This document shows, piece by piece, positions 4,923-64,000 of a stretch of DNA of 64,000 nt. The DNA is from Acinetobacter sp. CS-2 (GTDB lineage: Bacteria > Pseudomonadota > Gammaproteobacteria > Pseudomonadales > Moraxellaceae). The notes beneath the pieces are model-generated. The model saw only the letters and a program-made list of their open reading frames with translations, searched no databases and had not been told where the DNA came from. Made by a program: the position numbers and the translations under genes. Each line of letters opens with the position of its first letter. Position 1 is the stretch's first letter. The stretch is from positions 2,356,001 through 2,420,000 of the forward strand of contig NZ_CP067019.1 in assembly GCF_016599715.1 (NCBI RefSeq). The letters run 5' to 3'.

Positions 4923-7900
4923 TTATCCCTGACTGATTTCTAACAAACTTTCCACATTTTCCAGCAATTCCGCTTCCTGGAACGGTTTACCCATATAGTG
5001 CGTTACCCCAAGACTGAATGCACGTTCACGGTGCTTCTCGCCTGTTCTTGACGTAATCATGATAATAGGCAAGTTTTGATGCACGTCATGGTGACGAACC
5101 AGATTCGTGACTTCAAAACCGTCCATGCGCGGCATTTCAATATCCAGCAACATCAAGTCTGGTTTGACATTTTCCAGCTGCTCCATGGCATCAATACCAT
5201 CTTTGGCCGTCACCACATCAAAGCCTTGACGTTCAAGTAAACGTGAGGTCACCTTACGTACTGTCACCGAGTCATCCACAATCATGATCAGGCGGCGTGT
5301 ATTACTGTAACGCGAATGCTCACGTTGATCAGACACATGTTTAAGACGTTGGGTGTTCTGAATTTGTCGGGCAATATTCTGACCATCCAGAATCAGACAG
5401 ACTTGACCATCACCTAGAATAGTCGCTCCGGCAACAGCGCCAACACTTGAGAATTGCTGACCGATCGGTTTCACCACAATTTGTGCACGCGAACCAATCA
5501 GCTGATCCACAAGTAGTGCAATAGTTTGACCACTATTGCCTTTAATCAGCAATACAGGTAAAGAATGGGCAACATTACTTAAACGTGGTAAAGGCTGATT
5601 GGACACAAATTCGGATAAATAACGCAGTTTGTAACTGGTGTTATCAATTTTAAAGAAGTCGTCTTTACTGTTGAAATATTTTTCCAGTGCTGATGGTGCA
5701 ATACGTACAATACGGTCAATTTGTGCCAGTGAAATCGCAAACTGCTGGTCGCCTGATTTAACCATCAAGGCGTCACTCACCGCCACCGTAGTTGGTACGC
5801 GAATGGTAAAGGTGGTCCCTTTACCCAATTCAGAATCGATGGAAATATGCCCGCCCAGCGCCTTAATTTCGCTTTGCACCACGTCCAGACCTACACCGCG
5901 TCCGGAAATTTGGGTCACTTCTTTGGCAGTAGTAAATCCAGGATGGAAAATTAATTGCAGGATTTCCTGCTTATCCATGGATTGATCGGCTTTAATTAAA
6001 CCCAAGCTGAGTGCTTTTTCTTTAATTTTTGTTTCATCAATCCCTTTACCGTCATCACTGAATGACACCAGTACATCTGTACCTTGACGGCTAATATTGA
6101 GAACAATTTTCCCGACTTCAGGCTTTTGTAACTCATGTCGTACGTGAGTGTCTTCCAGACCATGGTCAATCGCATTACGCAGCATGTGCTCGAACGGTGT
6201 AACCAGACGCTCTAGAATGTTACGGTCCAATTCACCTTCGGTGTTTTGCACCACCAGCTCGGCCGGACGGTTCAGGGTCGATGAGGTTTGATGCACAATC
6301 CGTTGTAACCGTGGCAATAAACGATCAAATGGTACCAGACGGGTACGCATCAGGCTTTCTTGAATCTCGGCTTGAATACGGGATTGTTGTAACAGTAAAC
6401 CTTCCGTATCACGAATCTTTTCTGACAGGGTCGTCTTGAAATCGACCAAGTCAGATGCAGATTCCGCCAGCGATTTTGACAACTGGTTTAATGATGAATA
6501 TTGGTCCATCTCCAGGGGATCAAAATCGGCATAACGTGAATTATCACCATGTTTGGCAATAATTTGAGACTCGAGCTCACCTTCCATTCGACGTAACTGG
6601 TCAGCCAGACGCTTGATTGCCAGTTCCATTTCGTTCAGGGTATTACTAAACTGTCCCAAGTCCATTTCAATACGTGAACGGTTAATCGCATTTTCACCAG
6701 ACAAGTCGATCATTTTCTCGACCAGATCGGCAGAAATACGGATCATTTCATTGCTGTTGTCCTGTTGATTACTTGTATCCCACTCACCCATCATTGCTGG
6801 AGGTTCGGTACCATCACCCTGAACAAATTCAAAGACTTTAGCCGTAGACAGCGTATCGGATTCGGCCACGCGCTTAGGTAACTGCGCAATGACATCAACA
6901 AATTCAATCGACTCTAAACTTAATTTGACGCTGTCAAAATTACTGTAATCATGCTCGAAAATGGCCTGCTTTAACCATGCCAAAGTCGTTTGCAATAACA
7001 GGTCATAAACATTGGAGTTGAACTGATGCACCGCAAAGCGTTCGAAGGTGGTTTCCAGCTGGTAAGCAATTGCCCCTACCGGTTCATTTTCCACCATACG
7101 TGCGCCACCTTTCAAACTGTGGGCTGCACGCTGTAATTGAAGCAGCAAGCTACGGTCACTACGCTGCTCAAACCACTGTTTCAACAGGCTATCTGTAGAC
7201 TCCAGAATTTCTTCTGCTTCTTCCCAGAAGGTTTCTTCTGCAATTAAACGGATACTGTCATCTGGCTCTTCAACATGGTCTGGAGTTGCCAAGGCAACTT
7301 CAGCAGCTGCTTCAGCTTCGACTTTAGCTTCCACTTCAGTTTCAAGCTGAATCTCAGGTTCAATTTCTGTTTCTAATGTCGTTGCAGTTTCAAGTTCTTC
7401 AATTTCAGCTGCAACTTCAGGTTCAGCCTGAACTTCGACTTCCGCAACTGCGGTGCTTACAGCCACACTACCTTGAGCGATCGCCTGAATATTACGCAAA
7501 ATTTCAATCGATTCAGCACCAGAATAATCAATCTGCTCATCGCGAATGACTTGAATACGGTCTGATACATCATCTTGTACTAAGCGAATAATACTGATGA
7601 GTTGTGGATTGACCTCAATTTGATGACGGATCACGCGTTCATAAATGCTTTCCAATTCATGCGCAATTAAGCCAATATGAGTCGCCTGAATCATATTGGC
7701 ACCCCCTTTAAGGGTATGCAAATAACGCATTAAATTATTCAGTGCTGCAGTATCGGACGGATCTTTCGACCAGGTATTCAAGTCTTGATCGATCCCGCCC
7801 AGTAATTCTTCTGCTTCTTCCAGGAAGATATCCAACAAATCTTCATCAAAATCACGATTTGCATCAGCAGCATGCATGTGTTCGCGGTCTGAACCAATTT

Positions 7901-9392
7901 TTTGTGAAATCTGTGCCAGATCTACAATACCTGAAGCAGCAGCTGGTGAGGCTTCAGCTTGAGTTTCAGGATTCGGTTCCTGAACTTCGAACTGTTCAAG
8001 ATCCTGCTGAACAAAGGCTGCCAGATCATTCAGAACTTTCTGGATATCTTCCGTTAAAATAACGCGCTGACCTGCCGCCAGTGTATCAAACAGATGAATG
8101 AACTCTTGATGTGCCTGCCCAAACAGATCATATGCATAGTCGATATTGAGCAGTTCCGGTTTTAATACCAGAGCTTCATAGCCAGACTTCAATTCATGGG
8201 TAAATTGATAGATGCCCATCGCAGCACGATTATCAGTATTGTCCAATAATTGCTGTGCCTGCTGGCTTAAGGCCTGAATGTATTCCGGATATTCTACTTT
8301 GGCACGTTTTTCAAATTCGAATTCGGCATCCAGAAGTAAATCAATATTCAATTCGACCAGTTTGGACACCAGACCTTGCGGATTAACGTCCTCATCCACT
8401 TCTGCAGAACTGAAACCATAGTCGTCCCATGCCGAATTAAAGGTGGCATATATCGCATCAAGTTTCTGAGTCTGACCCTGTCTTAAAGTATGTAAATAAT
8501 CACGGACAAATTCAGCATATTGAATTAGCAACGCAGTCTGGCTGGAGGTAGAGACAATTTCTTCTTGTAAAAGTGTTTTAAATAAGTTTTCAACCTTGGT
8601 ACTGGCTGCAAAAATCTGATCAATATGTGCCATAGAAGAGCTGCCACGCAAGGTATGCAAGGCACGGATCAGGCCATTATAATCCTGATATTGTTCCTGT
8701 TCATTTTTCAGGAACTGGTCAATCGTGAGCAGATGTTCTTCTGCTTCTTCAATAAAGATCGCGACCGTTTCTTCAATATCATTGTTGTCGTCTGCTGCGA
8801 CTGACGCTGCTGTAGCAGTAGTTTCGATTGCCATTTCAGGCGCTGCTTCACTAAATGATTGATCCTGCAATTCCAGACCAGTAAGACTATTGACACTGGT
8901 CAGTGTGCTAGACAGTTCAAGCAATTCTTCTAGTGCAGGTTCTAAACTGACCTGCTGCTGAATTTGCTGCCCCAATAATACTAAAGGTCTTAAGTCGATA
9001 TCAGCATTTTGAACAGTTTTAAAAATTGGGTATAACTTGTATTGATAAATATTAAATACAGTTTGGGCAAATCGTTGAACTGTGCTGTCCAAAGGTACTG
9101 TGCCGGAAATAACCCGATTTAAAGTATCTTCAACCGCCCATGCCAACTCACCCGCAGATTTTGCTCCAACCATACGGCCAGAACCTTTAAGGGTATGAAA
9201 ATGACGGCGAATGGTCGTTAAAGTTTCTTGGTCATTCGGATTTTCCAACCAAGTTGTAAATAAAGTACTTAATTCAACGAAGATTTCTTCTATTTCTTCA
9301 ACAAAAATTTCTAGAATTTCTGCATCTTGATCAAGATAACTATCTTCAGGAAGCGTAGTCGTTTCAACTAAATTTTTTAATATTTCTTTCAT
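4923..9392 (-). CDS. chpA: ChpA hybrid histidine kinase / response regulator of twitching motility
   Basis: This 1489-residue CheA-type protein has four readable histidine phosphotransfer modules: FHTLKGSGRMVGA near residue 70, LHTLRGSSSMAHI near 245, LHTLKGGANMIQA near 565 and AHSLKGGARMVEN near 760. Then come a dimerisation region, an HATPase domain (HMLRNAIDHGLED, SDDGKGID, GRGVGLDVVQ), a CheW-like domain and a C-terminal receiver (MIVDDSVTVRKVT, LLDIEMPRMDGFEV). Linkers are rich in Glu and Ala. It should take signals from PilJ via PilI and phosphorylate PilG and PilH to control type IV pili. The Pseudomonas homologue is much longer with more Hpt/Spt modules; Acinetobacter ChpA proteins are shorter. 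Confidence 0.95.
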   Translation of the reverse strand: MKEILKNLVETTTLPEDSYLDQDAEILEIFVEEIEEIFVELSTLFTTWLENPNDQETLTTIRRHFHTLKGSGRMVGAKSAGELAWAVEDTLNRVISGTVPLDSTVQRFAQTVFNIYQYKLYPIFKTVQNADIDLRPLVLLGQQIQQQVSLEPALEELLELSSTLTSVNSLTGLELQDQSFSEAAPEMAIETTATAASVAADDNNDIEETVAIFIEEAEEHLLTIDQFLKNEQEQYQDYNGLIRALHTLRGSSSMAHIDQIFAASTKVENLFKTLLQEEIVSTSSQTALLIQYAEFVRDYLHTLRQGQTQKLDAIYATFNSAWDDYGFSSAEVDEDVNPQGLVSKLVELNIDLLLDAEFEFEKRAKVEYPEYIQALSQQAQQLLDNTDNRAAMGIYQFTHELKSGYEALVLKPELLNIDYAYDLFGQAHQEFIHLFDTLAAGQRVILTEDIQKVLNDLAAFVQQDLEQFEVQEPNPETQAEASPAAASGIVDLAQISQKIGSDREHMHAADANRDFDEDLLDIFLEEAEELLGGIDQDLNTWSKDPSDTAALNNLMRYLHTLKGGANMIQATHIGLIAHELESIYERVIRHQIEVNPQLISIIRLVQDDVSDRIQVIRDEQIDYSGAESIEILRNIQAIAQGSVAVSTAVAEVEVQAEPEVAAEIEELETATTLETEIEPEIQLETEVEAKVEAEAAAEVALATPDHVEEPDDSIRLIAEETFWEEAEEILESTDSLLKQWFEQRSDRSLLLQLQRAAHSLKGGARMVENEPVGAIAYQLETTFERFAVHQFNSNVYDLLLQTTLAWLKQAIFEHDYSNFDSVKLSLESIEFVDVIAQLPKRVAESDTLSTAKVFEFVQGDGTEPPAMMGEWDTSNQQDNSNEMIRISADLVEKMIDLSGENAINRSRIEMDLGQFSNTLNEMELAIKRLADQLRRMEGELESQIIAKHGDNSRYADFDPLEMDQYSSLNQLSKSLAESASDLVDFKTTLSEKIRDTEGLLLQQSRIQAEIQESLMRTRLVPFDRLLPRLQRIVHQTSSTLNRPAELVVQNTEGELDRNILERLVTPFEHMLRNAIDHGLEDTHVRHELQKPEVGKIVLNISRQGTDVLVSFSDDGKGIDETKIKEKALSLGLIKADQSMDKQEILQLIFHPGFTTAKEVTQISGRGVGLDVVQSEIKALGGHISIDSELGKGTTFTIRVPTTVAVSDALMVKSGDQQFAISLAQIDRIVRIAPSALEKYFNSKDDFFKIDNTSYKLRYLSEFVSNQPLPRLSNVAHSLPVLLIKGNSGQTIALLVDQLIGSRAQIVVKPIGQQFSSVGAVAGATILGDGQVCLILDGQNIARQIQNTQRLKHVSDQREHSRYSNTRRLIMIVDDSVTVRKVTSRLLERQGFDVVTAKDGIDAMEQLENVKPDLMLLDIEMPRMDGFEVTNLVRHHDVHQNLPIIMITSRTGEKHRERAFSLGVTHYMGKPFQEAELLENVESLLEISQG

Positions 9393-31438: not shown

Positions 31439-32226
31439 GGTGGTGTTTCAAAAAGTATGCTGAAACAAAGCAGGTTGAATTTTGATAAAATAGAGAAATG
31501 CGAATAACTCTAGAAATCAAATGTCCAACCTGCCTCAGTGACAGTATAAAGAAAAATGGCATCAAAGTAGATGGGAAACAAAACTATCAGTGCAAAGACT
31601 GTAAACGTCAGTTTATTGGTGACCATGCTCTGAGCTATCTAGGATGTAATTCAGGCATTACTCGAAAAATATTACAGTTGATGGTCAGAGGTAGTGGTAT
31701 ACGAGATATCGCTGAAGTTGAGCGAATCAGTATCGGTAAAGTTTTACGTACTTTAACCGAATCGACCTACCAAATTCAGCCTAAACAAAGTCATTATGAG
31801 TCTCTTGAAGTTGATGAGTTTTGGACTTTTGTGGGAAATAAAAATAATAAACAATGGCTTATTTACGCCTACCATCGAGAAACAGGTGAGATTGTTGCTT
31901 ATGTTTGGGGTAAAAGAGACTTAGCTACAGTTCAACGATTGAAGACAAAGCTTAAACAATTAGGTATTCACTACACCCGAATTGCAAGTGATCATTGGGA
32001 CAGTTTCATAACTGCTTTTAAAAACTGCAAGCAAAGTATTGGTAAATTTTTTACTGTAGGTATTGAAGGTAATAATTGCAAAATAAGGCATCGAATTAGG
32101 CGCGGTTTTAGAAGGAGTTGTAATTTTTCAAAAAAGATTGAAAACCATTTTAAAGCTTTCGACTTAACCTTTTTTTACATCAATAATGGCTTCATTTAAT
32201 GTCAGCATACTTTTTGAAACACCACC
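31439..32226 (+). mobile_element. IS1-family insertion sequence, copy 1 (ISPa14-like)
   Basis: The element is 788 bp. Its terminal inverted repeats begin GGTGGTGTTTCAAAAAGTAT, and the opposite end is the exact complement over at least 25 bp. A perfect 8-bp duplication, TAACAATA, flanks it (31431-31438 and 32227-32234). It carries one transposase gene and interrupts no gene: it lies between the DUF2062 gene and the apbC terminator. The second copy at 53994-54781 is the same length. Confidence 0.93.
31498..32199 (+). CDS. IS1-family transposase (single reading frame)
   Basis: This 233-residue protein has an N-terminal zinc-finger pair (CPTCLSDSIKKNG and YQCKDCKRQF), a helix-turn-helix region and DDE segments (LEVDEFWTFVG, RIASDHWDSF). 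Its C-terminus, HRIRRGFRRSCNFSKK, corresponds to the IS1 H..R..R..CFSK block. Classical IS1 needs a frameshift, while this group uses one frame. It differs from the second copy at a handful of residues (for example MRI against MQI, STYQ against SAYQ). Confidence 0.93.
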   Translation: MRITLEIKCPTCLSDSIKKNGIKVDGKQNYQCKDCKRQFIGDHALSYLGCNSGITRKILQLMVRGSGIRDIAEVERISIGKVLRTLTESTYQIQPKQSHYESLEVDEFWTFVGNKNNKQWLIYAYHRETGEIVAYVWGKRDLATVQRLKTKLKQLGIHYTRIASDHWDSFITAFKNCKQSIGKFFTVGIEGNNCKIRHRIRRGFRRSCNFSKKIENHFKAFDLTFFYINNGFI

Positions 32227-52790: not shown

Positions 52791-53993
52791 TATCTTTTAA
52801 AAATTTGTATAAATTAAATCCAGATATTTCAGAGGGTCCATGTTAATTCACGAAGCAGAAAGCTTACTTAAACAAGCTCTTAGCAATCCAACTGCAAAAT
52901 TTAGAGATGGGCAATGGGAAGCTATTGAAGCACTAACAAATAAACGTGAAAAACTTCTAGTCGTTCAAAGAACTGGTTGGGGAAAAAGCTCAGTTTATTT
53001 CATAAGCACTAGAATCTTTAGAGATCAAGGATTAGGCCCAACTATTATTATTTCCCCTCTTCTTGCTCTAATGAGGAATCAGGTTGAAGCCGCAGAAAAA
53101 TTAGGAGTCAGAGCAGCTACAATTAATACTTCTAATAGAGCTGAATGGAACTCAGTAACTCATCAAATTTTAAACAACGAAATTGATTGCTTACTAATTT
53201 CACCTGAACGACTCGCCAATGAAAATTTTATAGAAACAGTATTAATGCCTATTTCAAATACAATTTCCATGCTTGTTATTGATGAAGCACACTGTATTTC
53301 AGATTGGGGACATGACTTCAGACCCGACTATAGAAGAATTGTGAACATTCTTAGAAACTTACCAAATAATCTACCTTTATTAGCAACAACTGCAACTGCA
53401 AACGATAGGGTTATCTCAGATATTCAGCAGCAACTAGGCGATATAAAAATAATACGAGGCACCTTAACCAGAGATAATCTTGCACTACAAACTATTAAAT
53501 TAGCCGATCAGCCAAGTAGATTAGCTTGGCTAGTTCAAAATTTACCACTCATACAAAGAACAGGTATCATTTATGTATTAACAAAAAATGATGCTGAATT
53601 TGTATCTCAATGGTTAAACTTTAATGGTATTAAAGCTTTACCTTACTATAGTGGTATCAAACACAACGACTTTAAAAACGATGCTGGACAGCTGGATTCC
53701 GACTTATATAGAGAACATCTAGAACAACTATTGATTAATAATGATATTAAAGCATTAGTTGCTACTTCAGCCTTAGGAATGGGTTATGACAAACCCGATC
53801 TAGGCTTTGTTATTCATTATCAAGCACCAAACTCAGTTATTTCATACTATCAACAAGTGGGTCGTGCTGGACGTGGAATCAACTCAGCTATTGGAATACT
53901 TTTAAATGGTTATGAAGATGAACTGATTCATAATTTTTTTAGAAAAAATGCATTTCCTAAAGAGTATGAAATAGTGGGTATATTAAAAGCTTT

Positions 53994-54781
53994 GGTGGTG
54001 TTTTAAAAAGTATGCTGACATTAAATGAAGCCATTATTGATGTAAAAGAAGGTTAAGTCGAAGGCTTTAAAATGGTTTTCAAGCTTTTTGGAGAAATTAC
54101 AACTTCTTCTAAAACCACGCCTTATTCGATGCCTTATTTTGCAATTATTACCTTCAATTCCTACAGTAAAAAACTTACCAATACTTTGCTTGCAGTTTTT
54201 AAAAGCAGTGATGAAACTGTCCCAATGATCACTTGCAATTCGGGTGTAGTGAATACCTAATTGTTTAAGCTTTGTCTTCAACCTTTGGACTGTAGCTAAA
54301 TCTCTCTTACCCCAAACATAAGCAACAATCTCACCTGTTTCTCGATGGTAGGCGTAAATAAGCCATTGTTTATTATTTTTATTTCCAACAAAAGTCCAGA
54401 ATTCATCTACTTCGAGAGATTCATAATGACTTTGTTTAGGCTGAATTTGATAGGCCGATTCAGTTAAAGTCCGTAAGACTTTACCGATACTAATGCGCTC
54501 AACTTCAGCGATATCTCGTATACCGCTGCCTCTGACCATTAACTGTAATATTTTACGAGTAATGCCAGAATTACATCCTAGATAGCTCAGAGCATGGTCA
54601 CCAATAAACTGACGTTTGCAGTCTTTGCATTGGTAGTTTTGTTTCCCATCTACTTTGATGCCATTTTTCTTTATATTGTCACTGAGGCAGGTTGGACATT
54701 TGATTTCTAGAGTTATTTGCATTTCTCTATTTTATCAAAACTCAACCTGCTTTTTTTTAGCATACTTTTTGATACACCACC
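53994..54781 (-). mobile_element. IS1-family insertion sequence, copy 2 (ISPa14-like)
   Basis: The element is 788 bp with ends GGTGGTGTTTTAAAAAGTAT and complement (small mismatches) and a perfect 8-bp duplication, AAAGCTTT (53986-53993 and 54782-54789). It disrupts the RecQ-phosphoribosyltransferase gene and reads on the opposite strand to it. Confidence 0.94.
54021..54722 (-). CDS. IS1-family transposase, second copy
   Basis: This 233-residue protein is nearly identical to the transposase at 31498-32199, with the same zinc-finger pair, DDE segments and C-terminal FSKK block. Differences include MQI for MRI, DNI for DSI, SAYQ for STYQ and KLEN for KIEN, so the two copies did not arise by a very recent direct jump from one another. 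Confidence 0.92.
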   Translation of the reverse strand: MQITLEIKCPTCLSDNIKKNGIKVDGKQNYQCKDCKRQFIGDHALSYLGCNSGITRKILQLMVRGSGIRDIAEVERISIGKVLRTLTESAYQIQPKQSHYESLEVDEFWTFVGNKNNKQWLIYAYHRETGEIVAYVWGKRDLATVQRLKTKLKQLGIHYTRIASDHWDSFITAFKNCKQSIGKFFTVGIEGNNCKIRHRIRRGFRRSCNFSKKLENHFKAFDLTFFYINNGFI

Positions 54782-55767
54782 AAAGCTTTAGACAATGTCG
54801 AAAGCTTATCATTAGAAAAACTAGAAAAATCAGCTAATTTGCCAGCTAAAAGAATTGAACATGCTTTAAAATATTTACGTACGGAAAATCCATCCCCTGT
54901 CTCTAGCTCTACAGGTAAATCCTGGTCTAGAAATCCTGTTCATTATAAATTAAATACAGATCATATTAGTAAGATAACTGCTATTAGAGAACAAGAATGG
55001 CAACAAATGCTTCAATTTATCAATACTGATAAATGCTATATGCATTTAGTCAGAGAATATCTGGATGACAAAAATACTGATAAATGTGGAATTTGTTCTA
55101 ATTGTATATCCGAGCCTCTTATAGATATCAAGATTAATTCAAATCTCGCAAATAAAGCTGCGAGTTTTATTAAACATACCGAACAACCTATAGAACCACG
55201 TAAGCAAATTGCTACTTCAAATGAAGAACATATAAATACTTTTAAAATATATACACTCCCTAGACAGTTAGGTTCTTTAAGTGCTCAAGAAGGAAGAGTT
55301 TTATCTCGCTGGGGTGATGCGGGCTGGGGACATCTCGTTAAAGAAGGTAAAGAAAAAAATTACTTTAGTGATGAATTAGTAAATGCTGTTGCTGATATGA
55401 TAACTCAACGATGGAAACCTAGTCCTACTCCTCAATGGATATGTTGTGTACCTTCGTTAAATCATAAAACTCTTGTACCTGATTTTGCAGCAAAATTAGC
55501 CAATAAGCTAGGTATTCCGTTTATTGATGTTATTTCTAAAATTAAAGAGAATGAACCTCAGAAGTTCCAAAACAATAGATTCCACCAATGTAAAAATTTA
55601 GATGGTGTATTCGAAATTTCGAGTAAAATTCCTAATAGCCCTGTTCTTCTTATAGATGACATGGTCGATTCCCGATGGACCTTCACCGTTATTGCTGCTC
55701 TACTTAGGCAGCATGGAAGTGGTGAAGTATTTCCTGTCGCTCTAGCATCCACTTCGGTAAACGAATC

Positions 55768-57051
55768 ATGAATTTAAGCAAAAGCTCTCAAGCGATTATT
55801 CTATTAACTAGTTATTTTACCAAAGCTAATGACTCTGAGCATAAACCGCTGACACCTACTGAATGGGGAAGATTCGCAAAGTGGCTTCATGAGAATCAGC
55901 ATACTCCTGAAGATTTACTTACTCGTGAAGTAAAAGATATTTTAATAGAATGGCAAGATCCAAAAATTTCTAGTACTCGCCTATTATATCTACTAGGCCG
56001 TGGTCATAGTATGGCATTAAACTTGGAAAAATGGTCAAGGTCTGGACTCTGGGTAATCACTAGAGCTGATAGTGAATATCCTTGGCGCTTAAAACAGAGA
56101 CTCAAGCAGGATGCACCACCTGTATTATTTGGGTGTGGTTCAAAAGAATTATTAAATTATCCTGGACTCGCTGTTGTTGGCTCAAGAAGTGCCAATGTAT
56201 CTGATTTGAAATATGCTGAAACTATTGGAGCGAAAGCATCTTTCGAAAGTGTCTCCATTATTTCTGGTGGAGCTAAAGGTATTGATGAAAGTGCTATGCT
56301 TGGTGCTGTAAATAATCACGGTATGACCGTCGGTGTAATGGCTGACAGTTTACTTAAGCATATTACAAGCAAAAAATGGCGCTCTGCACTGATGAATGAA
56401 CAAGCTGTTCTCATCTCTCCGTTTTATCCTGAAGCAGGATTCTCGACTGGAAATGCAATGGCAAGAAATAAGTATATTTATTGTTTAGCAGATTCAAGTT
56501 TAGTAGTGCACTCGGGGCTTAAAGGAGGAACCATTGCTGGTGCTCAAGAAAACCTGAGAAAAGGTTGGGTTCCTATATATATAAAACCTAATGATGATCA
56601 AAACTCAGCTAATACTTTCTTGATCAATCAAGGTGGTAGACCTATAAATACTACTCTCGATAATTTATCAATTATAGAACATCTATTCAAACTTGATCTA
56701 CCTATAGAATCCCACCCTCCTGTTGATGTGATTAATCACCAGATTGATATGTTCAACCCAAACCCAAACCCAAACCCAAACCCAAACCCAAACCCAAACC
56801 CAAACCCAAACCCAAACCCAAACCCAAACCCAAACCCAAACCCAAACCCAAAAGATTTTGTGAAAAATTTTGATTTTTACAATTATTTCTTGGATTTTTT
56901 ACGAGAAGCAAATTTAGATGAAAGCACTGTCGACGAAATCATTCAACATTCTAAATTACATAAATCACAAGTAAATGAATGGTTAAAAATAGCCATTAGT
57001 GAAAGAAAAATTCAAAAAATGAACAAACCCGTAAGATATAAACTTTTATAA
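55768..57051 (+). CDS. DprA/Smf-like DNA-processing protein with an Asn-Pro repeat linker
   Basis: This 427-residue protein has an N-terminal helical domain and then the DprA Rossmann core: LAVVGSRSAN, IISGGAKGIDESAMLGA, EAGFSTGNAMARNKYIYCLAD and HSGLKGGTIAGAQENL. A tract of 16 Asn-Pro pairs (residues about 330-361) links this to a C-terminal winged helix (STVDEIIQHSKLHKSQVNEW, KMNKPVRYKLL) like the DprA C-terminal domain. Classical DprA loads RecA on single-stranded DNA in transformation. Dedicated DprA-like paralogues beside phosphoribosyltransferases also occur in anti-phage systems, as I recall for ShosTA. It is translationally coupled to the RecQ fusion, so a paralogue role in this island is likelier than competence. 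Confidence 0.85.
   Translation: MNLSKSSQAIILLTSYFTKANDSEHKPLTPTEWGRFAKWLHENQHTPEDLLTREVKDILIEWQDPKISSTRLLYLLGRGHSMALNLEKWSRSGLWVITRADSEYPWRLKQRLKQDAPPVLFGCGSKELLNYPGLAVVGSRSANVSDLKYAETIGAKASFESVSIISGGAKGIDESAMLGAVNNHGMTVGVMADSLLKHITSKKWRSALMNEQAVLISPFYPEAGFSTGNAMARNKYIYCLADSSLVVHSGLKGGTIAGAQENLRKGWVPIYIKPNDDQNSANTFLINQGGRPINTTLDNLSIIEHLFKLDLPIESHPPVDVINHQIDMFNPNPNPNPNPNPNPNPNPNPNPNPNPNPNPNPKDFVKNFDFYNYFLDFLREANLDESTVDEIIQHSKLHKSQVNEWLKIAISERKIQKMNKPVRYKLL
56755..56850 (+). repeat. Perfect (AACCCA)16 hexanucleotide tandem repeat
   Basis: Sixteen uninterrupted AACCCA units span 96 bp inside the DprA-like gene and encode sixteen Asn-Pro pairs. Because the unit is 6 bp, copy changes alter linker length without breaking the frame. 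The lack of any synonymous variation implies recent expansion by slippage. Confidence 0.97.
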
Positions 57052-57063
57052 CCATCTCTACCT

Positions 57064-57092
57064 CCTTCCTCTTTTTATATTAAAGAGGAAGG
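57064..57092. terminator. Hairpin between convergent dprA-like and kinase genes
   Basis: The 11-bp arms CCTTCCTCTTT / AAAGAGGAAGG with a 7-base loop sit in the short gap between the two stops. T runs are weak, but position and stem strength suggest a shared terminator. Confidence 0.65.
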
Positions 57093-57121
57093 AAGAAAAA
57101 CCTAATATCAAATATAACCTT

Positions 57122-58594
57122 TTACATCAAACTAATTTTTTGATAAAAAGCTCTCTTTTCTAGAAGGTTTATATCATTAGGGTTTAATCTTAGCGCCAGC
57201 TTAAGATATCCAACAACAGAATTATAGTCCCGTAATTGTTCACAGACTTGAATAAGTTGTTTGATGATCTTAATTTGACGTGGTTCCTTCTCATTTAAAC
57301 ATTCTAGTAAATTTCTAGCCTCTGAATATTGTGCATCCAAACCCAATGAAATAGCTTTCAAATGCATATATTCAGAAGAATTTGAGGTAAATTTAACTTT
57401 TAAGTGCTCAATCCATTTATTTGCTTCAGAAAGATTTCTTTGCAGTAATGAAACTTTGATGATGAGCTCTAATAACTCTAAGTCATCATCACCTCTATTT
57501 TGTATTATGTAAGCTTGATACTCTTTAACAGCTTTAGAAAATTCTAAATACCTTTTATCTTTGTATAATGCACTTAAATGCTGATGCAAAGCCAATAGAT
57601 CTCTTTCTGTATCAAAAACTTGCTTCGATAGATAAGCTGCTTTCGAGTATTTCCTTTCTGAAATTAGCTCTAAAACTTGAGAAGACCAATCTCTATTTTC
57701 ACTTATTGGTTTTATAGCTGAAGAAATAGTATTTATTTTCTGAAATTTAACAGCCTCTTCAAACTCTTCCTTTAAATCTTGGATAGTTTGAAATCTATTT
57801 CCAGGCTGTTTTTCCAAACATTTGAGAATAAATAAGTCTAATTTCTCATTAATCGATTTATTTAACTCTGATGGTTTAGGAAAATGTACATGTCTGTATA
57901 CTGCTGCTGGAGTATCGTGAGGTAATTGACCCGTTAAAAGTTGATATAGCAAAACACCTAAACTATAGATATCACCTAACAATAGATCCTGGGCACTCCC
58001 TTTACGACTCGAAACATAAGAGAATTCTGGTGCAGAATATAAAACTGTACCACCATTCTCTCGCGTACGTACATAAATTTCTTCTGGCAGTGCTGAGCTA
58101 CCAAAGTCAGTCAACTTTACTAAGTCATTATCACCAATAAGAATATTATGAGGTTTAATATCTCCATGAGATATTGGAACATCAAGTTCAGCTAGATATT
58201 GAATCGCATTTAAAACTTGTCTATAAATCTTAAAAATACGTTCATAACTTTGACCGAACTTACAACCAATGACATCCATTTTCTGAGCCAATGTCTGGCT
58301 CGGAAAATATTCCATTTCGATGTAAAACCACTCTTTTTCAATGCGCCCCATAGCATAAATTTTAATAATATTGGGATGAGGATCTAATCCTAATAACTCC
58401 TTACCTTCTGCTAACTCTCTATCTTCCTTGGTAATGTCTTTGGGAATTTTAACAGCGACAATTTCACCATCTACTAGACGTTCAGCACGCCATACCCAAC
58501 CATGACTTCCATCACCTAAGCATTCTAGTAGCAAGTATTGATTACCTAGCTGCTTTTGGTTTCCGGGTAGAAAATGTGCTGAACGAATATTCAC
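57122..58594 (-). CDS. Ser/Thr protein kinase with TPR-like C-terminal region
   Basis: This 490-residue protein has a kinase domain in residues 20-280. It shows a Gly-rich loop GDGSHGWVW, VAVK (Lys49), a helix-C Glu near 63-66, catalytic loop HGDIKPHN (143-150), TDFGSS (163-165 DFG) and an APE-like APEFSYV. Its HGD in place of HRD is common in bacterial kinases. Residues 300-490 form helical repeats resembling TPRs (AAYLSKQVFDTERDLLALHQHL, SEANKWIEHLKVKFTSNSSEY). No membrane segment is seen, so it is cytoplasmic. It is the last gene of the minus-strand operon and overlaps its upstream neighbour by 4 bases. It may sense or regulate the HerA/NurA module. Confidence 0.88.
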   Translation of the reverse strand: MNIRSAHFLPGNQKQLGNQYLLLECLGDGSHGWVWRAERLVDGEIVAVKIPKDITKEDRELAEGKELLGLDPHPNIIKIYAMGRIEKEWFYIEMEYFPSQTLAQKMDVIGCKFGQSYERIFKIYRQVLNAIQYLAELDVPISHGDIKPHNILIGDNDLVKLTDFGSSALPEEIYVRTRENGGTVLYSAPEFSYVSSRKGSAQDLLLGDIYSLGVLLYQLLTGQLPHDTPAAVYRHVHFPKPSELNKSINEKLDLFILKCLEKQPGNRFQTIQDLKEEFEEAVKFQKINTISSAIKPISENRDWSSQVLELISERKYSKAAYLSKQVFDTERDLLALHQHLSALYKDKRYLEFSKAVKEYQAYIIQNRGDDDLELLELIIKVSLLQRNLSEANKWIEHLKVKFTSNSSEYMHLKAISLGLDAQYSEARNLLECLNEKEPRQIKIIKQLIQVCEQLRDYNSVVGYLKLALRLNPNDINLLEKRAFYQKISLM

Positions 58595-59145
58595 TTTAAC
58601 AACTCACTTTTAATATCGTGCAAGCTAATACTAGTGCCATTATCAACAAAATAAAATCGATTTAATATCACTGTAATTGTTGATGGCAACTGAATCTGAA
58701 GGCCTTTAGAACTTGTAAACCCACGATAAAATATGTTTTTCAAAGCCGTTAAGTCGGGAGAAGTAACTATGCCTTTGCTCCAAACACTCAAAATGAGTAC
58801 TTTTGGCTTGAATTCCCAGCGACTACAAGCATCCATCAAGTTTTTAAGCTTGCATTCAATTTTATATTGGTCTTGAATCCCTTGATAGCGCTCAAACTCT
58901 ATTAAGTAGCTAGGATGACTCTGATGCTTATTAAACCATCCAGAATCAGAGCGTATATCTGCGGCATGTGTATTTGGCGCTGGACACTCAACAATAGCCA
59001 TATAGCCCTGTTCATGCCCAAATGTATTCCAAATACTGCAACCAATGCTATGAACTAATACATCACGATCGCCCAACAAGCCACTCGTAGTGATGGGAAA
59101 ACTTTGTTGCACCCATTCAAGCGAAGGGACATTGGTTTCAACCAT
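58591..59145 (-). CDS. Uncharacterised island protein between HerA-like and kinase genes
   Basis: This 184-residue protein starts at ATG 59145, which overlaps the HerA-like stop by 8 bases. Segments are WVQQSFPITTSGLLGDRDVL, GYMAIVECPAPNTHAADIRS, and a C-terminal beta-rich part (KVLILSVWSKGIVTSPDLTA and QIQLPSTITVILNRFYFVD). Tight overlap on both sides implies it works with the ATPase and the kinase. I do not recognise the family; a small regulatory or adaptor subunit is one possibility. Confidence 0.7.
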   Translation of the reverse strand: MVETNVPSLEWVQQSFPITTSGLLGDRDVLVHSIGCSIWNTFGHEQGYMAIVECPAPNTHAADIRSDSGWFNKHQSHPSYLIEFERYQGIQDQYKIECKLKNLMDACSRWEFKPKVLILSVWSKGIVTSPDLTALKNIFYRGFTSSKGLQIQLPSTITVILNRFYFVDNGTSISLHDIKSELLK

Positions 59146-60823
59146 TAAAACTACCCCAAACACGTAATACTTCTGGAGACTCACCACCATGAATTAATGC
59201 TTTACTTCCCACCTTGACCAATAAAGGCGCAGGGATTGAGCGGCCACACACCAAGGCTTCACCAGTAGATAAACTTGGTAGTTCATCTAAATCAGCCTTA
59301 CTCACCATATCAGATGCTTTAGCAATAAATCGTTGGTCATCTGGGTTTTTTAATCTCATTGTGATTAATGTATTACATTGAGATGTGACATCGGAATCAA
59401 GTTTAGATGGTCGCTGACTCACGATTCCAAATCCAACACCAAACTTACGCCCTTCACCTGCAATCTTTTTGATGACTCGATGACTTACAGCATTACCACC
59501 TGCAGGTGCAAAACTATGTCCCTCTTCGTAGATAATAAAACATGGTCGAAGTGGATCCGTTTTACTCGATGCAGCTTTCAAAATTTCACTAGACAGCAAA
59601 GCACATACAACCTGTTTTGCTGTATCACTTAAGCCCTGTAGATCCACTACAACGAGGCGACCTTGTTGATTTGTAGGACGTCCAACCATTTTATAAATAT
59701 CTGTTGGCTCTTTCATTGTCGCAGAATAAAAACTCTGTGCTTCGTTAAGTACTCGAGATAACTTCATAGACGCAACGGCGGCACTACGTCCAGAAAGGGC
59801 TTTTGCTTCAGCTTCTGATAAATCATCCCATTCTTTTAACTCTTCAATACCATCCCCTAAGAAATATCTTAAACGATTAATATCTCTAGGTTCTGTCTTA
59901 TCAGTCGCTCTCCAATAACGAATAGCCACATCAAGTACACGTTGTTGTGGCTCCGTTAAACCCGGTAGAATCTCGGCAATATCATCCATTTCAAAATGGT
60001 CAAATTGCAAAGCAAGTGGAATATTTTTACTGGCGTATTTGTACTTAAATGATTCTTGCTGAGGTGAATAAATCTGAATCCCTGCTCCAGCTTTTTGTAA
60101 TTTTTCAAAAGTTTCTTTAATTTTAGGCAAGGTTTCTTGATCTCGTACATCATCTATATCATCAAAATGATTTGAGAACTGCAACTCGCCTTTAGATAAG
60201 GCTTTTCCATATTCGCCATGCGGATCAAATACAACCACTGTGCCATTATTTAAGGTCACTAATCTTTCAATGATTCGACCTACGGTATAGGACTTACCTG
60301 AGCCTGTCATTGCTAAAATAGCCATATGCTCAGTTACCAGTTTATTCACATCAATAAATACAGGTACCGTATTTTGGCCTTTGTCATAGCCGACCAAATT
60401 GCCTAAATGTAAGCTTGTATGCTCATTAAATTCATAAAAATCACTTAGAAACTGGAAATCAACAGTTTCAACTGCTGTACCTGGATTTAAAGGACGTCGA
60501 GGTATTTTAATTTGACGCGTCTGAGGGTCTCGATAACCTACCAACTCGACTTGGGCATAAATATTTTCACCCGTGACGCTAGCACCTGGTAATAACTCTA
60601 ATTCAGTAACACCATCACCAAAACCCAAGTTATACAACATATTAGATCGGTTAATTTTAACGACACGACCTAAAACAGCCACGTCACCTTCATCCTGACG
60701 TTCTTGGTGCATGATACGTACAAACTCGCCACGGCGCACAGAAAAAGAGTCTTGAACAACCATAGTTAATTGGCTTGCATCACCCGTATTTCCAACTAAT
60801 TTACCTAGTACTTTATAAGCCAT
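59138..60823 (-). CDS. HerA-type hexameric ATPase
   Basis: This 561-residue HerA/FtsK-superfamily ATPase has an N-terminal HAS-barrel (residues 1-130). Walker A is AMTGSGKSYTVGR near 171-183, followed by VVVFDPHGEYGKAL. Walker B is CFIIYEEGHSFAPAGG, with sensor and arginine-finger region FGVGFGIVSQRPSKLDSDV. HerA proteins translocate or unwind DNA as rings and partner with nucleases. The NurA-like gene ends one base before this gene starts, the classic herA-nurA pairing, so a DNA-end-resecting complex is the likely function. A CTC-rich overlap with the downstream gene suggests coupled translation. Confidence 0.92.
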   Translation of the reverse strand: MAYKVLGKLVGNTGDASQLTMVVQDSFSVRRGEFVRIMHQERQDEGDVAVLGRVVKINRSNMLYNLGFGDGVTELELLPGASVTGENIYAQVELVGYRDPQTRQIKIPRRPLNPGTAVETVDFQFLSDFYEFNEHTSLHLGNLVGYDKGQNTVPVFIDVNKLVTEHMAILAMTGSGKSYTVGRIIERLVTLNNGTVVVFDPHGEYGKALSKGELQFSNHFDDIDDVRDQETLPKIKETFEKLQKAGAGIQIYSPQQESFKYKYASKNIPLALQFDHFEMDDIAEILPGLTEPQQRVLDVAIRYWRATDKTEPRDINRLRYFLGDGIEELKEWDDLSEAEAKALSGRSAAVASMKLSRVLNEAQSFYSATMKEPTDIYKMVGRPTNQQGRLVVVDLQGLSDTAKQVVCALLSSEILKAASSKTDPLRPCFIIYEEGHSFAPAGGNAVSHRVIKKIAGEGRKFGVGFGIVSQRPSKLDSDVTSQCNTLITMRLKNPDDQRFIAKASDMVSKADLDELPSLSTGEALVCGRSIPAPLLVKVGSKALIHGGESPEVLRVWGSFNG

Positions 60824-60824
60824 T

Positions 60825-61961
60825 TTATTCTTCCCCTTCTAGACTCTCTAACCAACCCGATTCGACTTCATTTTGCTTCACAGCATTGTGTAAGCCTTTA
60901 CGATAAAACTCCGCGAATTGAGGCAATATATTTAATTGTTGATAACCTAGTAATTGTGGCAATGGCATAGCTTTGCCTTTATTTTGCATATCCAGTGCCA
61001 TTAATCTTGATGCGACAATATCAAGTGATTCGCTGGTCCAAGCAGGCTCATCCCCAACGAGTTGGACGAATTTAATTTGTCCTTGTCTAGAACTTCTAAA
61101 ATGAAAACCAATCAAACCTTGTTGTACTTCCTTAACAGGTTCAATTCGGTTTTCTGATTGATGTGACCTAAAGGCAATGGTTCTTGTAAAATTACCAAGT
61201 ATTCCATTAATAAACCTTAAATCACCAATCCCTATAAGCTGTTCTTCAATTTCGTCCAATTGCTTAATCATGAGCGCATCAAATCCATCATTTTCTAGGA
61301 TCTGGCTCCTACCTTCAGCAGTTCGTAAATCTTGCTTAGCAATACTTACAATTGCTGAGAATCGCTCAGCCAAAATACTTGCAACGACTGGTCCATTTGG
61401 ATTCCAAGGAAAAATTGACTGACGAAACCGATCCCAAAAGCTTTCAATCACTTTTTTAGTTTTTTCATACTCTTGCTTATGTTTTTTATGTCTATCAAGT
61501 GGAGCCATATCCCTTGCTAGAAAAAAAGGTGTATCAATCAAGATAAGATTATAGCTATGAGCAGAATTGAAAATCTTTTCCAGCAAGGAATAGGTTTGTC
61601 GAATCTGTATCAACTCTAAACGTTTAGCTTGGGCTTCAAAATCAATATCATCTAATTCAGAAATGCTGTCTGTTGCGCCAGAACTTAATTTGTTTTGCTC
61701 AATCAGTAGATCTACACGGAGCGCTGCACTGACATAAATAAAGCCACCTAGTGCTTTTGTGACGCAAGATCGTGTAGAGATACCCGCTAGATTCATATCA
61801 ACTATGCTTAATTTCGGTACAGGTTTAACCAACCCCACATCACGAAACATTGGAGCAATTTTCTCAATATCTCGAATATTTTTTAATATTCGTCCAGCAC
61901 TTCCCGGTAATCTTAATTGACTGTCAATCGCAAGAGATTGAGCAAGATTTATTGTTTTCAA
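60825..61961 (-). CDS. NurA-domain nuclease
   Basis: This 378-residue protein has the NurA pattern: an Asp-containing strand LSIVDMNLAGIS near residue 53, a helical insert, LILIDTPFFLARDMAP (second acidic strand), IVSIAKQDLRTAEGR, and a late FRSSRQGQIKFVQLVGDEPAW with a terminal helical region. In archaea NurA is the end-resecting nuclease partner of HerA. In bacteria herA-nurA pairs recur in mobile defence-type islands. The gene lies between the HerA-like gene (1-base gap) and the unknown 275-residue gene (6-base gap). Confidence 0.8.
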   Translation of the reverse strand: MKTINLAQSLAIDSQLRLPGSAGRILKNIRDIEKIAPMFRDVGLVKPVPKLSIVDMNLAGISTRSCVTKALGGFIYVSAALRVDLLIEQNKLSSGATDSISELDDIDFEAQAKRLELIQIRQTYSLLEKIFNSAHSYNLILIDTPFFLARDMAPLDRHKKHKQEYEKTKKVIESFWDRFRQSIFPWNPNGPVVASILAERFSAIVSIAKQDLRTAEGRSQILENDGFDALMIKQLDEIEEQLIGIGDLRFINGILGNFTRTIAFRSHQSENRIEPVKEVQQGLIGFHFRSSRQGQIKFVQLVGDEPAWTSESLDIVASRLMALDMQNKGKAMPLPQLLGYQQLNILPQFAEFYRKGLHNAVKQNEVESGWLESLEGEE

Positions 61962-61967
61962 AATAGT

Positions 61968-62795
61968 TTAGTCCTTTAATTGCTGAGCTAAAGGTTCGGC
62001 ATAATTCCAAATAGAGGAGTCCTGCAAGGCACTAAGACCTTTTTGTGTGAGATTTTTATTGGCTATAAACTTCTCATTCTCAAGTATCCCGTATCGTTTG
62101 AGAATATCTAGCTGATTCAAATCAAAAACCCCTAGGTACTCAATTTTTTCTCTAATCTCACTTGATGAATACTCAGGTAAAATATGCACCAGTAACAAAA
62201 CGGTATAATCTAGTTGATTCAGCGTATAGGTATTAACAGCCTCAATAACAGGAACTTCATCTGACTTGGTACCACAATGATCAAGAAACCAAGTCAACCA
62301 CGCTTTCACTTGATTCGCCGCATCAAGTAGGTTCACTGACCATAGAGGTAAAGTTGTCACCGCAAAGACACCACTATTCGAATGTCTTCGTATATAACGG
62401 GTATGAACTAAATCACCTATATGATGTTGTGCTGGCTCATAACTACCACGATATCCACTTAATGCCTGTAATATTTCTGATTGCAATATTTGAAACTCAA
62501 AGGCATCATGTTCACAGATCGCATGTTCACTATATTCAAGCGTCCAATCTAATCCCAAAGTCGTTTGCTTACAGAGTTCCATCAACTGTTCATGAGGTTC
62601 AAGTATCAAGAGTGCACAGCCTGCCTGTTGAGACCAATCTACATAAAAATGAATATTGTCTATATTCAGCTCTTTCGCACTAACGAGTAATACCCCAGAT
62701 AGAGGTAATACCTGACCTGCAATTTCAGGCTTGATCAACCGTTTTAAAATACGGCCTTTGCTCACACCTGATAAATATTCAGAGAGAAAAATCAA
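61968..62795 (-). CDS. Uncharacterised island protein upstream of the NurA-like gene
   Basis: This 275-residue protein starts MIFLSEYLSGVSKGRILKRL and has LLLVHILPEYSSSEIREKIE with a C-terminal helical stretch that reads like a winged-helix or DNA-binding end (DILKRYGILENEKFIANKNL, TQKGLSALQDSS). It is cytoplasmic, with no signal or membrane segment. It sits between the coiled-coil gene (14-base gap) and the NurA-like gene (6-base gap). I do not recognise the family. Confidence 0.72.
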   Translation of the reverse strand: MIFLSEYLSGVSKGRILKRLIKPEIAGQVLPLSGVLLVSAKELNIDNIHFYVDWSQQAGCALLILEPHEQLMELCKQTTLGLDWTLEYSEHAICEHDAFEFQILQSEILQALSGYRGSYEPAQHHIGDLVHTRYIRRHSNSGVFAVTTLPLWSVNLLDAANQVKAWLTWFLDHCGTKSDEVPVIEAVNTYTLNQLDYTVLLLVHILPEYSSSEIREKIEYLGVFDLNQLDILKRYGILENEKFIANKNLTQKGLSALQDSSIWNYAEPLAQQLKD

Positions 62796-62809
62796 AGCCT
62801 TCCCCCTGA

Positions 62810-64000
62810 CTAATACGCAAAAGATAATTTAATTTTTAAGATCCCAGCTTCAACTAATTTTTGCTGTTGCTCTACGCTCAATGGAATCTGCTCTTGATTG
62901 TTTGAAATAGCATCATGTGCTTTTTTCCAAGTTGGTAAATCAAGCCCTAAAGGGTTTAGAACTTCCTCTGCTTGTGTAGCCCACTGCTTCAATTTTTCGT
63001 TACATGCTTTTTCTAAATCTTTGAGACTAAGTGCACCTAGCTCATTTTCATCTATAAAGTTTTGATGATTTACTTGCCCCACAAACAATGGCTTTAAGCT
63101 TGGAAATTCCTGCCGCAACAAATTAATTTTTTCATTTTTATAAGTTGTACAGTGATTTTCAATTACTAACAATTTACTTGCAACAGAAGAGTTTAATTGC
63201 TGCCGAACAGTATTGTAAAAGCGATCAGCTATACCTTCCAAAGAAGAAAAATCCCCTTTTTGCATTTGTTCTCGATATTTTTCACGGTACTTATCTACAT
63301 CCTCCTCTATATAACTCAGACTTTCTTCCAAAATTGAAATACGGTCTTCAATTTCTTCTAGATTCTCTAAGTCAGAAGAGAACTGGGCTAATGCCTCAGC
63401 ACCAGACAACTTAACTGTCAATTCTTGAACTTTAGAGCGATGCTTTTCTAAGTTTGAAATAATAGTTTCATGTAGCTCCAAACATTTATTGTAGTTCGGA
63501 ACTATATAACCAGTCGAAATATGACCAATATCCTTTGGAATATTCGTATAAACATCTAGTCCAACTTCATCCGCAAGCTCTAATAGTTTCTTATCCGCTT
63601 CAACAAAATTCATTGTCCGCAGTGCATGGATAAAGGTATCACTACTTGCTTGAATTTGTTTTTTCGCTGTTTCACTAGGATTCTCATTATTTAAAACAGC
63701 ATCAACAATATTACCAATAGTATTTAGACACTTCTTAAAAATTAATACCGAACAATCATGATGCGCTTGAGCATCTGCTTCCATGATGTCAATCAGCGCC
63801 ATACTGCGCACTTTGATTTTATAACAAGCGGCTTGTACTTTTTCTGCATAAAGCGTTGCTTGTTGTACTCTTTCATAAAGAGACAACTGCCGATCAGCAA
63901 TATCTAAAGTATTTACATCTCTTAATGCTGTCTTTTGTAGATATAGTGGTTTGACTTTTTCAACCAAAGAAAGGATTTCCGTCCTTTGCTTTAAAAGTGG
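62810..64000 (-). CDS. Uncharacterised coiled-coil protein (partial, N-terminus beyond window)
   Basis: The frame stays open to the window end: residues before the possible TTG start at 63967 read PLLKQRTEILSL, which continues the helical pattern. The visible 397 residues are rich in Glu/Lys/Leu with long coiled coils (DLENLEEIEDRISILEESLS and VDKYREKYREQMQ). A C-terminal segment reads AEEVLNPLGLDLPTWKKAHD. It looks like a structural or SMC-like partner of the HerA-NurA module. It is the most upstream gene of the operon visible here. The true start and full length are outside the window. Confidence 0.7.
   Translation of the reverse strand, partial: PLLKQRTEILSLVEKVKPLYLQKTALRDVNTLDIADRQLSLYERVQQATLYAEKVQAACYKIKVRSMALIDIMEADAQAHHDCSVLIFKKCLNTIGNIVDAVLNNENPSETAKKQIQASSDTFIHALRTMNFVEADKKLLELADEVGLDVYTNIPKDIGHISTGYIVPNYNKCLELHETIISNLEKHRSKVQELTVKLSGAEALAQFSSDLENLEEIEDRISILEESLSYIEEDVDKYREKYREQMQKGDFSSLEGIADRFYNTVRQQLNSSVASKLLVIENHCTTYKNEKINLLRQEFPSLKPLFVGQVNHQNFIDENELGALSLKDLEKACNEKLKQWATQAEEVLNPLGLDLPTWKKAHDAISNNQEQIPLSVEQQQKLVEAGILKIKLSFAY

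Follow-up and report, generated by a model that had tools for sequence, protein, structure and literature searches.

The 64,000-nucleotide stretch analysed here (the window; bases 2356001-2420000 of the 3.26-Mb contig NZ_CP067019.1 of Acinetobacter sp. CS-2) ends in two convergent gene sets, which are two separate defence-type loci side by side and not one system. The plus-strand set is a broken copy of the PsyrTA (RqlH-RqlI) toxin-antitoxin. The minus-strand set is probably (roughly 60% in our estimate) the effector half of a ten-gene operon for methylation-guided defence, in which HerA and a nuclease, gated by a kinase, would replace HsdR. The original prediction had combined both sets into one unnamed DNA-processing island. 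Its gene positions and spacings proved exact, the locus does look like a defence-type island, and its kinase-linked HerA/NurA set matched no named system in the libraries searched; what fell away was the view of a single system. The minus-strand operon it described is likewise real, although the window holds only the 3′ half, with the rest beyond base 64000. We extended the reading past that point in a segment called L003, numbered from window base 62000 as base 1.

The minus-strand operon and its HsdS subunit

Reading from its start, the operon encodes a small protein, HsdM, HsdS, U390, a 1425-residue P-loop ATPase, U275, a NurA-fold protein, HerA, U199 and a Ser/Thr kinase. The first four lie beyond the window: the small protein W123 (123 residues; L003:11217-11588), HsdM (L003:9046-11190; PADLOC MTase_I at 1313.8 bits, Pfam N6_Mtase), HsdS in two pieces (L003:6316-7392 and 8555-9043; Specificity_I at 5.2e-49 in the C-terminal piece) and U390 (L003:5136-6308). 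The ATPase gene crosses the edge, its C-terminal 396 residues encoded at 62810..64000 and the remainder running on to L003:5088; its match to KAP_NTPase (18.9 bits) was below the cut-off of 20. All on the minus strand of the window, there follow U275 (61968..62795), the NurA-fold protein (60825..61961; predicted fold), the hexameric DNA translocase HerA (59138..60823; Pfam DUF87 at 2.4e-45, HAS-barrel), U199 (58591..59145; predicted nuclease) and, as the last gene, the kinase (57122..58594; Pfam Pkinase at 3.1e-34), whose C-terminal TPR-like repeats gave a weak TPR match. The open reading frame (ORF) of U199 reaches 59190, with an ATG at 59145, and the gene overlaps herA. U275 had weak profile matches to ribosomal eS10 (the best, E 0.03), regulators and unrelated GTPases, and its C-terminal part may be a winged helix. 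The presence of HsdM and HsdS as partners of HerA and the NurA-fold protein points to methylation-guided restriction. Because an insertion sequence (IS) splits hsdS (L003 ~7400-8579, with pieces of a DDE transposase, 16-nt inverted ends and a 9-bp direct repeat), the operon copy in CS-2 may be partly or wholly off.

Relatives of the operon were collected with the ATPase as sole query against a contig collection containing one genome per species (84,980 species), which recovers close relatives only: 59 relatives in 54 loci, including Proteobacteria, Cyanobacteria, Acidobacteria, Verrucomicrobia, Fibrobacter and Firmicutes. Eight core genes (HsdM, HsdS, ATPase, U275, NurA, HerA, U199 and kinase) were all present in 41 of the 54, and in all 41 the order was identical. 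Several of the remaining 13 loci are interrupted by contig ends, and HsdS is displaced in three distant ones: it separates NurA from HerA in L062 and L063 and follows the ATPase in L061. U275 was called in 46/54 loci, U390 in 45/54 and the small protein in 36/54; these counts, like that of the 41 complete loci, cover plus-strand ORFs only and use profiles built from the same loci, and those for W123 and U275 hold partly by construction, as Firmicutes members were added to the profiles after matches at E 4.5e-9 and 7.1e-12. In Firmicutes U390 is a weak call, and there is an extra gene of 351 residues, X351, without detectable kinship to U390.

The strongest sign of DNA marking and restriction by the operon is the replacement of HsdS. 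Among the 41 complete loci, the pairwise identities of HsdM, U390, ATPase, U275, NurA, HerA, U199 and kinase correlate with r of 0.83-0.99, and those of HsdS with r of 0.50-0.54; identity figures here are descriptive, since related sequences are not independent. HsdS was less than 40% identical in 20 of the 22 pairs whose ATPases are more than 90% identical, and in 44 of the 50 pairs above 80%. Two Legionella loci (L034 and L035) have HsdS proteins of 27% identity alongside HsdM, ATPase, NurA, HerA, U199 and kinase proteins that span 93-100% (HerA 100%, kinase 98%), and a second pair (L016 and L030) combines 35% in HsdS with 97% in the ATPase. Exceptions were L013/L014, in which HsdS is 70% identical, and L010/L028, in which HsdM itself is swapped (75%, with the ATPase at 98%). 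The same pattern occurs within one species: two Escherichia coli copies, C2 and C41, have one kinase accession in common and ATPases identical at 1417 of 1428 positions, and a BLASTP comparison of their HsdS proteins gives a good match in the C-terminal 98 residues alone (76%), besides another 134 residues that match at 31%. Replacement of HsdS amid near-identical partners suggests a self-recognition subunit whose target recognition is under diversifying replacement.

The operon is patchily distributed. It was found in 2 of 175 genomes of the genus (a third match, 76 residues at 29%, was rejected as not the operon) and in 1 of 398 genomes of a phylum sample, that of CS-2 itself. In E. coli, nurA-herA DNA was present in 252 of 5426 complete genomes (~4.6%) at 95-99% identity, always on the chromosome, and 249 of the 252 matches span at least 80% of the query. 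The NurA-fold protein had no match in plasmid and phage collections. Two of the E. coli regions were examined, and both have the full ten-gene order. McrBC and a phosphorothioate-dependent restriction endonuclease flank it on one side; on the other are an integrase and satellite-like genes, which we take to be P4-like, and then a tRNA-Leu ~13 kb further on. Six of the ten E. coli products are annotated 'hypothetical protein', the others 'HsdM family methyltransferase', 'subunit S', 'HerA domain protein' and 'kinase'.

Predicted nucleases and a proposed mechanism

In ORFs assigned to each family, with fragments such as those in L049 and L050 kept as misses, the Walker A and B motifs of HerA were found in 49/50 (the single miss is a fragment), the HxD and DFG motifs of the kinase in 49/50 each, the NPP-type motif of HsdM in 46/47 and its motif-I pattern in 23/47; the Walker patterns of the large ATPase matched 45 and 48 of 57 sequences. 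U199 is a predicted PD-(D/E)XK-type nuclease. Its predicted fold is restriction endonuclease-like and contains the alpha-beta-beta-beta-alpha-beta core of that superfamily; D67, E83 and E85 (as E83-F-E85) are invariant across 20 sequences, and the motifs are present in 46 of 46. The lysine is off its usual PD-(D/E)XK place, at K99 on the next helix, and the pattern K..N[LI] occurs in 45 of 46.

The protein encoded between U275 and HerA resembles archaeal and bacterial NurA in its predicted fold, and its neighbor HerA has the Walker motifs. In contrast to canonical NurA, it lacks DGS, which is NurA motif I: the motif occurred in none of 49 NurA-like ORFs versus all 120 canonical controls (retrieved with a single cyanobacterial query), and the looser DG[ST] occurred in 1 of the 49. 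Another canonical set, used for alignment, had been selected for the presence of DGS and says nothing about how common the motif is. Because no significant alignment to canonical NurA was obtained, any residue placed opposite the motif-I aspartate is a provisional assignment. The active-site aspartate D49 of Thermococcus kodakarensis NurA is essential, according to the accessible text of PMC12977600. A profile search of solved structures returned no match for the NurA-fold protein or U390, and weak, unconvincing matches for U275 and U199.

In the mechanism that we favor, HsdM-HsdS would place a sequence-specific adenine methyl mark on host DNA, as their domains and the hypervariability of HsdS suggest. 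A HerA hexamer seated on a dimer of the NurA-fold protein would pull DNA through in place of HsdR, and U199, going by its predicted fold, would cut it. The 1425-residue ATPase, together with U390 and U275, may serve as sensor, loader or scaffold, and the TPR kinase would gate the nuclease by phosphorylation upon unmarked DNA or infection. We infer a defence role for the operon as a whole. A bolder proposal is that the operon represents a distinct, unnamed class of restriction-modification system, defined by HsdM-HsdS with HerA on a catalytically retired NurA, a separate PD-(D/E)XK cutter and a Ser/Thr kinase switch; this we advance tentatively and consider somewhat doubtful. Such restriction would be phosphorylation-gated, with interchangeable sequence specificity, and would exist in several bacterial phyla and, judged by the nurA-herA part, in ~4.6% of complete E. 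coli genomes.

If the mechanism is right, kinase gating would be added to restriction-modification, and a defence operon of many E. coli strains would be sitting behind generic annotation. It would also provide another case, beside TdpAB, of HerA/NurA machinery paired with a DNA mark. The E. coli copies that differ in HsdS make self-marking directly testable by methylome sequencing.

Named systems and rival explanations

The operon apparently has no name, as judged from PADLOC, NCBIfam and Pfam scans and from a literature search outside which most subscription papers, including that on MADS, lay. It shares HsdM and a hypervariable HsdS with type I restriction-modification systems; unlike them, it has no HsdR, whose position is taken by HerA, the NurA-fold protein, U199, the large ATPase and the kinase. 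In the 41 complete loci, the interval from hsdM to the kinase gene contains no unassigned ORF as large as HsdR, and no HsdR is annotated in the two E. coli regions. Nor was a type I restriction endonuclease among the best 25 of 42 families matched by 32 large flanking ORFs, although HsdR could be encoded elsewhere in the genome. TdpAB, a phosphorothioate-linked system, likewise has HerA-like and NurA-like components; the mark in the present operon is instead predicted to be N6-methyladenine made by HsdM-HsdS, and the kinase, U199, ATPase, U390 and U275 are additional. A methylase, a large P-loop ATPase and a kinase also occur in one operon in BREX type 2/Pgl (PMC12839542). However, none of the ten operon proteins of A. 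lactucae, which served for the NCBIfam scan of the complete operon, matched PglZ, BrxA, BrxB or BrxC, and the sole BREX family matched was PglW, by the kinase, at 54 bits versus 990. A methylase of 433 residues upstream of the operon in CS-2 (MT433) weakly matches PADLOC PglX (E 0.00028). The main texts of two BREX/Dnd papers (PMC12839542, PMC10853773), as far as accessible, do not contain the word 'NurA' or describe this gene set.

The operon could instead be a divergent MADS subtype or a 'MADS-like' system, that is, one in which methylation self-recognition is joined to a multi-protein restriction arm of kinase, ATPase and nuclease; we hold this to be unlikely, while giving it real weight. 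Its general composition is similar to that of MADS: going by family names on the MADS side, both unite a methyltransferase, a type I-like specificity subunit, a Ser/Thr kinase and a HerA-like ATPase. MAD2 and MAD5 were the best NCBIfam matches of HsdM and HsdS, but at 115 bits against an equivalog cut-off of 720 and at 101 bits against 400, respectively. The kinase matched MAD6 (125 bits versus a cut-off of 460) second to PknB_PASTA (162 bits), and HerA matched PADLOC mad8 (3.8e-25) far more weakly than generic HerA (7.1e-57). The other six proteins (the small protein, U390, ATPase, U275, NurA and U199) matched no NCBIfam family. Among 34 members of five loci, HsdM and HsdS not included, only the four kinases matched a MADS family within the best 25 of 50 families, and a second scan of the same members found no other MADS family among the best 25 of 55. 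A search of 229 genomes with mad7 gave two partial matches and no MADS locus for comparison; mad3 was discarded as a locator, as its model is not specific, hitting every one of 293 genomes and each of 14 controls. The MADS authors reportedly mention 'MADS-like systems', among which this operon may fall. We therefore regard the operon as a variant and not as something categorically new.

Three further readings fare less well than methylation-guided restriction. HerA and NurA are a known end-resection pair, according to the accessible text of PMC9960219 and PMC12977600, and the operon might be devoted to DNA repair or genome maintenance, with resection under kinase control and the type I methyltransferase incidental. 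The patchy presence noted above argues against this, as do the linkage to HsdM-HsdS in 41/54 loci, the hypervariability of HsdS and the adjoining defence genes in the two E. coli regions, and we consider a repair operon improbable. The kinase could alternatively cause abortive infection, phosphorylating host proteins to stop growth, with the methylase pair serving self/non-self discrimination only and HerA, the NurA-fold protein and U199 sensing foreign DNA. Precedents for a kinase in defence exist in PglW and the Stk2 type, and the kinase motifs are conserved here. Stk2 is listed in PMC10121019. Nevertheless, U199 conserves nuclease-type residues and HerA its Walker motifs, which suggests an output that acts on DNA, and there seems only a small chance that abortive infection is the right account. 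Finally, the two operons could form one system in which phosphoribosyltransferase/DprA signaling feeds kinase-controlled HerA-NurA resection, as first proposed. They are adjacent and convergent in the window, and in Vibrio mexicanus (L049), too, psyrTA is a neighbor of the operon, immediately preceding hsdM. This is the only co-occurrence among the 54 loci: PsyrTA was not found beside the minus-strand operon in the other 53 (within flanks of at most 10 kb, several contigs being shorter), and it already has a name as an independent two-gene system. Nothing was found in favor of the nucleotide-like signal that had been part of the proposal, and the one-system reading is largely refuted.

A lead to the Ter/TerY-P stress system was also dropped. 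There, a kinase, a phosphatase and a vWA protein occur together with HerA/NurA, and it had been suggested that a phosphatase or vWA gene might lie beyond base 64000; neither domain was found in the Pfam results for 12 of the 18 ORFs listed there.

The PsyrTA pair and genes flanking the operon

The plus-strand genes, originally taken as members of an unnamed set, are PsyrTA, published also as RqlH-RqlI. The N-terminal piece of PsyrT/RqlH (52840..54006, plus strand) is a RecQ-like DEAD helicase (Pfam DEAD and Helicase_C) that covers profile positions 6-374 of PADLOC PsyrT (E 9.7e-187), its final residues reading into an IS element. The C-terminal piece (54839..55771, plus strand) comprises the RecQ zinc-binding and phosphoribosyltransferase regions and covers positions 393-688 (E 1.6e-102); Pfam RecQ_Zn_bind scored 29.1 bits, and Pribosyltran scored 24.6 bits, below its cut-off of 26.3. 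The DprA-like antitoxin PsyrA/RqlI (55768..57051, plus strand; Pfam DNA_processg_A at 140.9 bits, PADLOC PsyrA at E 8.4e-155) overlaps psyrT by 4 bases. The arrangement is thus that of PsyrTA, a RecQ helicase-phosphoribosyltransferase followed by a DprA-like protein, with both PADLOC models matched at near full length; it differs in that psyrT is split and PsyrA has an Asn-Pro repeat tract. This long dipeptide repeat lies after the DprA domain (window ~56760-56850) and is possibly variable in length.

The element that splits psyrT is of the IS1 family (53994..54781, minus strand; transposase ORF 54021-54722 with DDE_Tnp_IS1 and InsA domains, inverted ends) and is flanked by the 8-bp direct repeat AAAGCTTT at 53986-53993 and 54782-54789. 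Because this repeat, from which we placed the ends, is a palindrome, the exact ends are uncertain. The insertion interrupts the toxin gene and leaves the antitoxin gene whole. In RqlH-RqlI, the phosphoribosyltransferase domain shows genotoxicity when its DprA-like partner is missing, according to the accessible text of PMC4670107. Against a defence role for the pair, the accessible text of PMC12409345 describes PsyrTA of E. coli NILS69 as giving no detectable protection, with a growth defect upon expression.

The surroundings of the minus-strand operon vary. In CS-2, a second N6-methyltransferase (433 residues) and a half-size specificity subunit (199 residues) lie directly upstream (L003:11720-13617, window 73719-75616), preceded by HNH and GIY-YIG genes; A. 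lactucae has a different gene at the site of this methyltransferase. McrB-McrC-like genes stand directly before the small protein in six loci (L011, L016, L022, L030, L066 and L067; called by Pfam for L011 and L016 and from annotation for L066 and L067), and other loci differ there. In the two E. coli regions the McrBC genes overlap the first operon gene by 4 bases. Fifteen loci (including L024, L025, L034, L038, L042, L045 and L048) carry a related extra gene of 378-541 residues before hsdM; nine of the 15 give an HsdS-like profile (E 2.5e-23), and the L024 member has no Pfam match. Very large ORFs (~1130-1390 residues) lie downstream of the kinase gene in L015 (20110-24273), L025 (20096-24262), L017 and L037, and that of L015 has sacsin-like HATPase domains. 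Among the 32 large flanking ORFs, PADLOC identified components of defence systems, including TmtA, DruE and Mokosh. Within the window, a second IS1-family transposase ORF (31498-32199) has the same length as the one in psyrT (233 residues) and near-equal Pfam scores, and the two perhaps represent one element at two sites.

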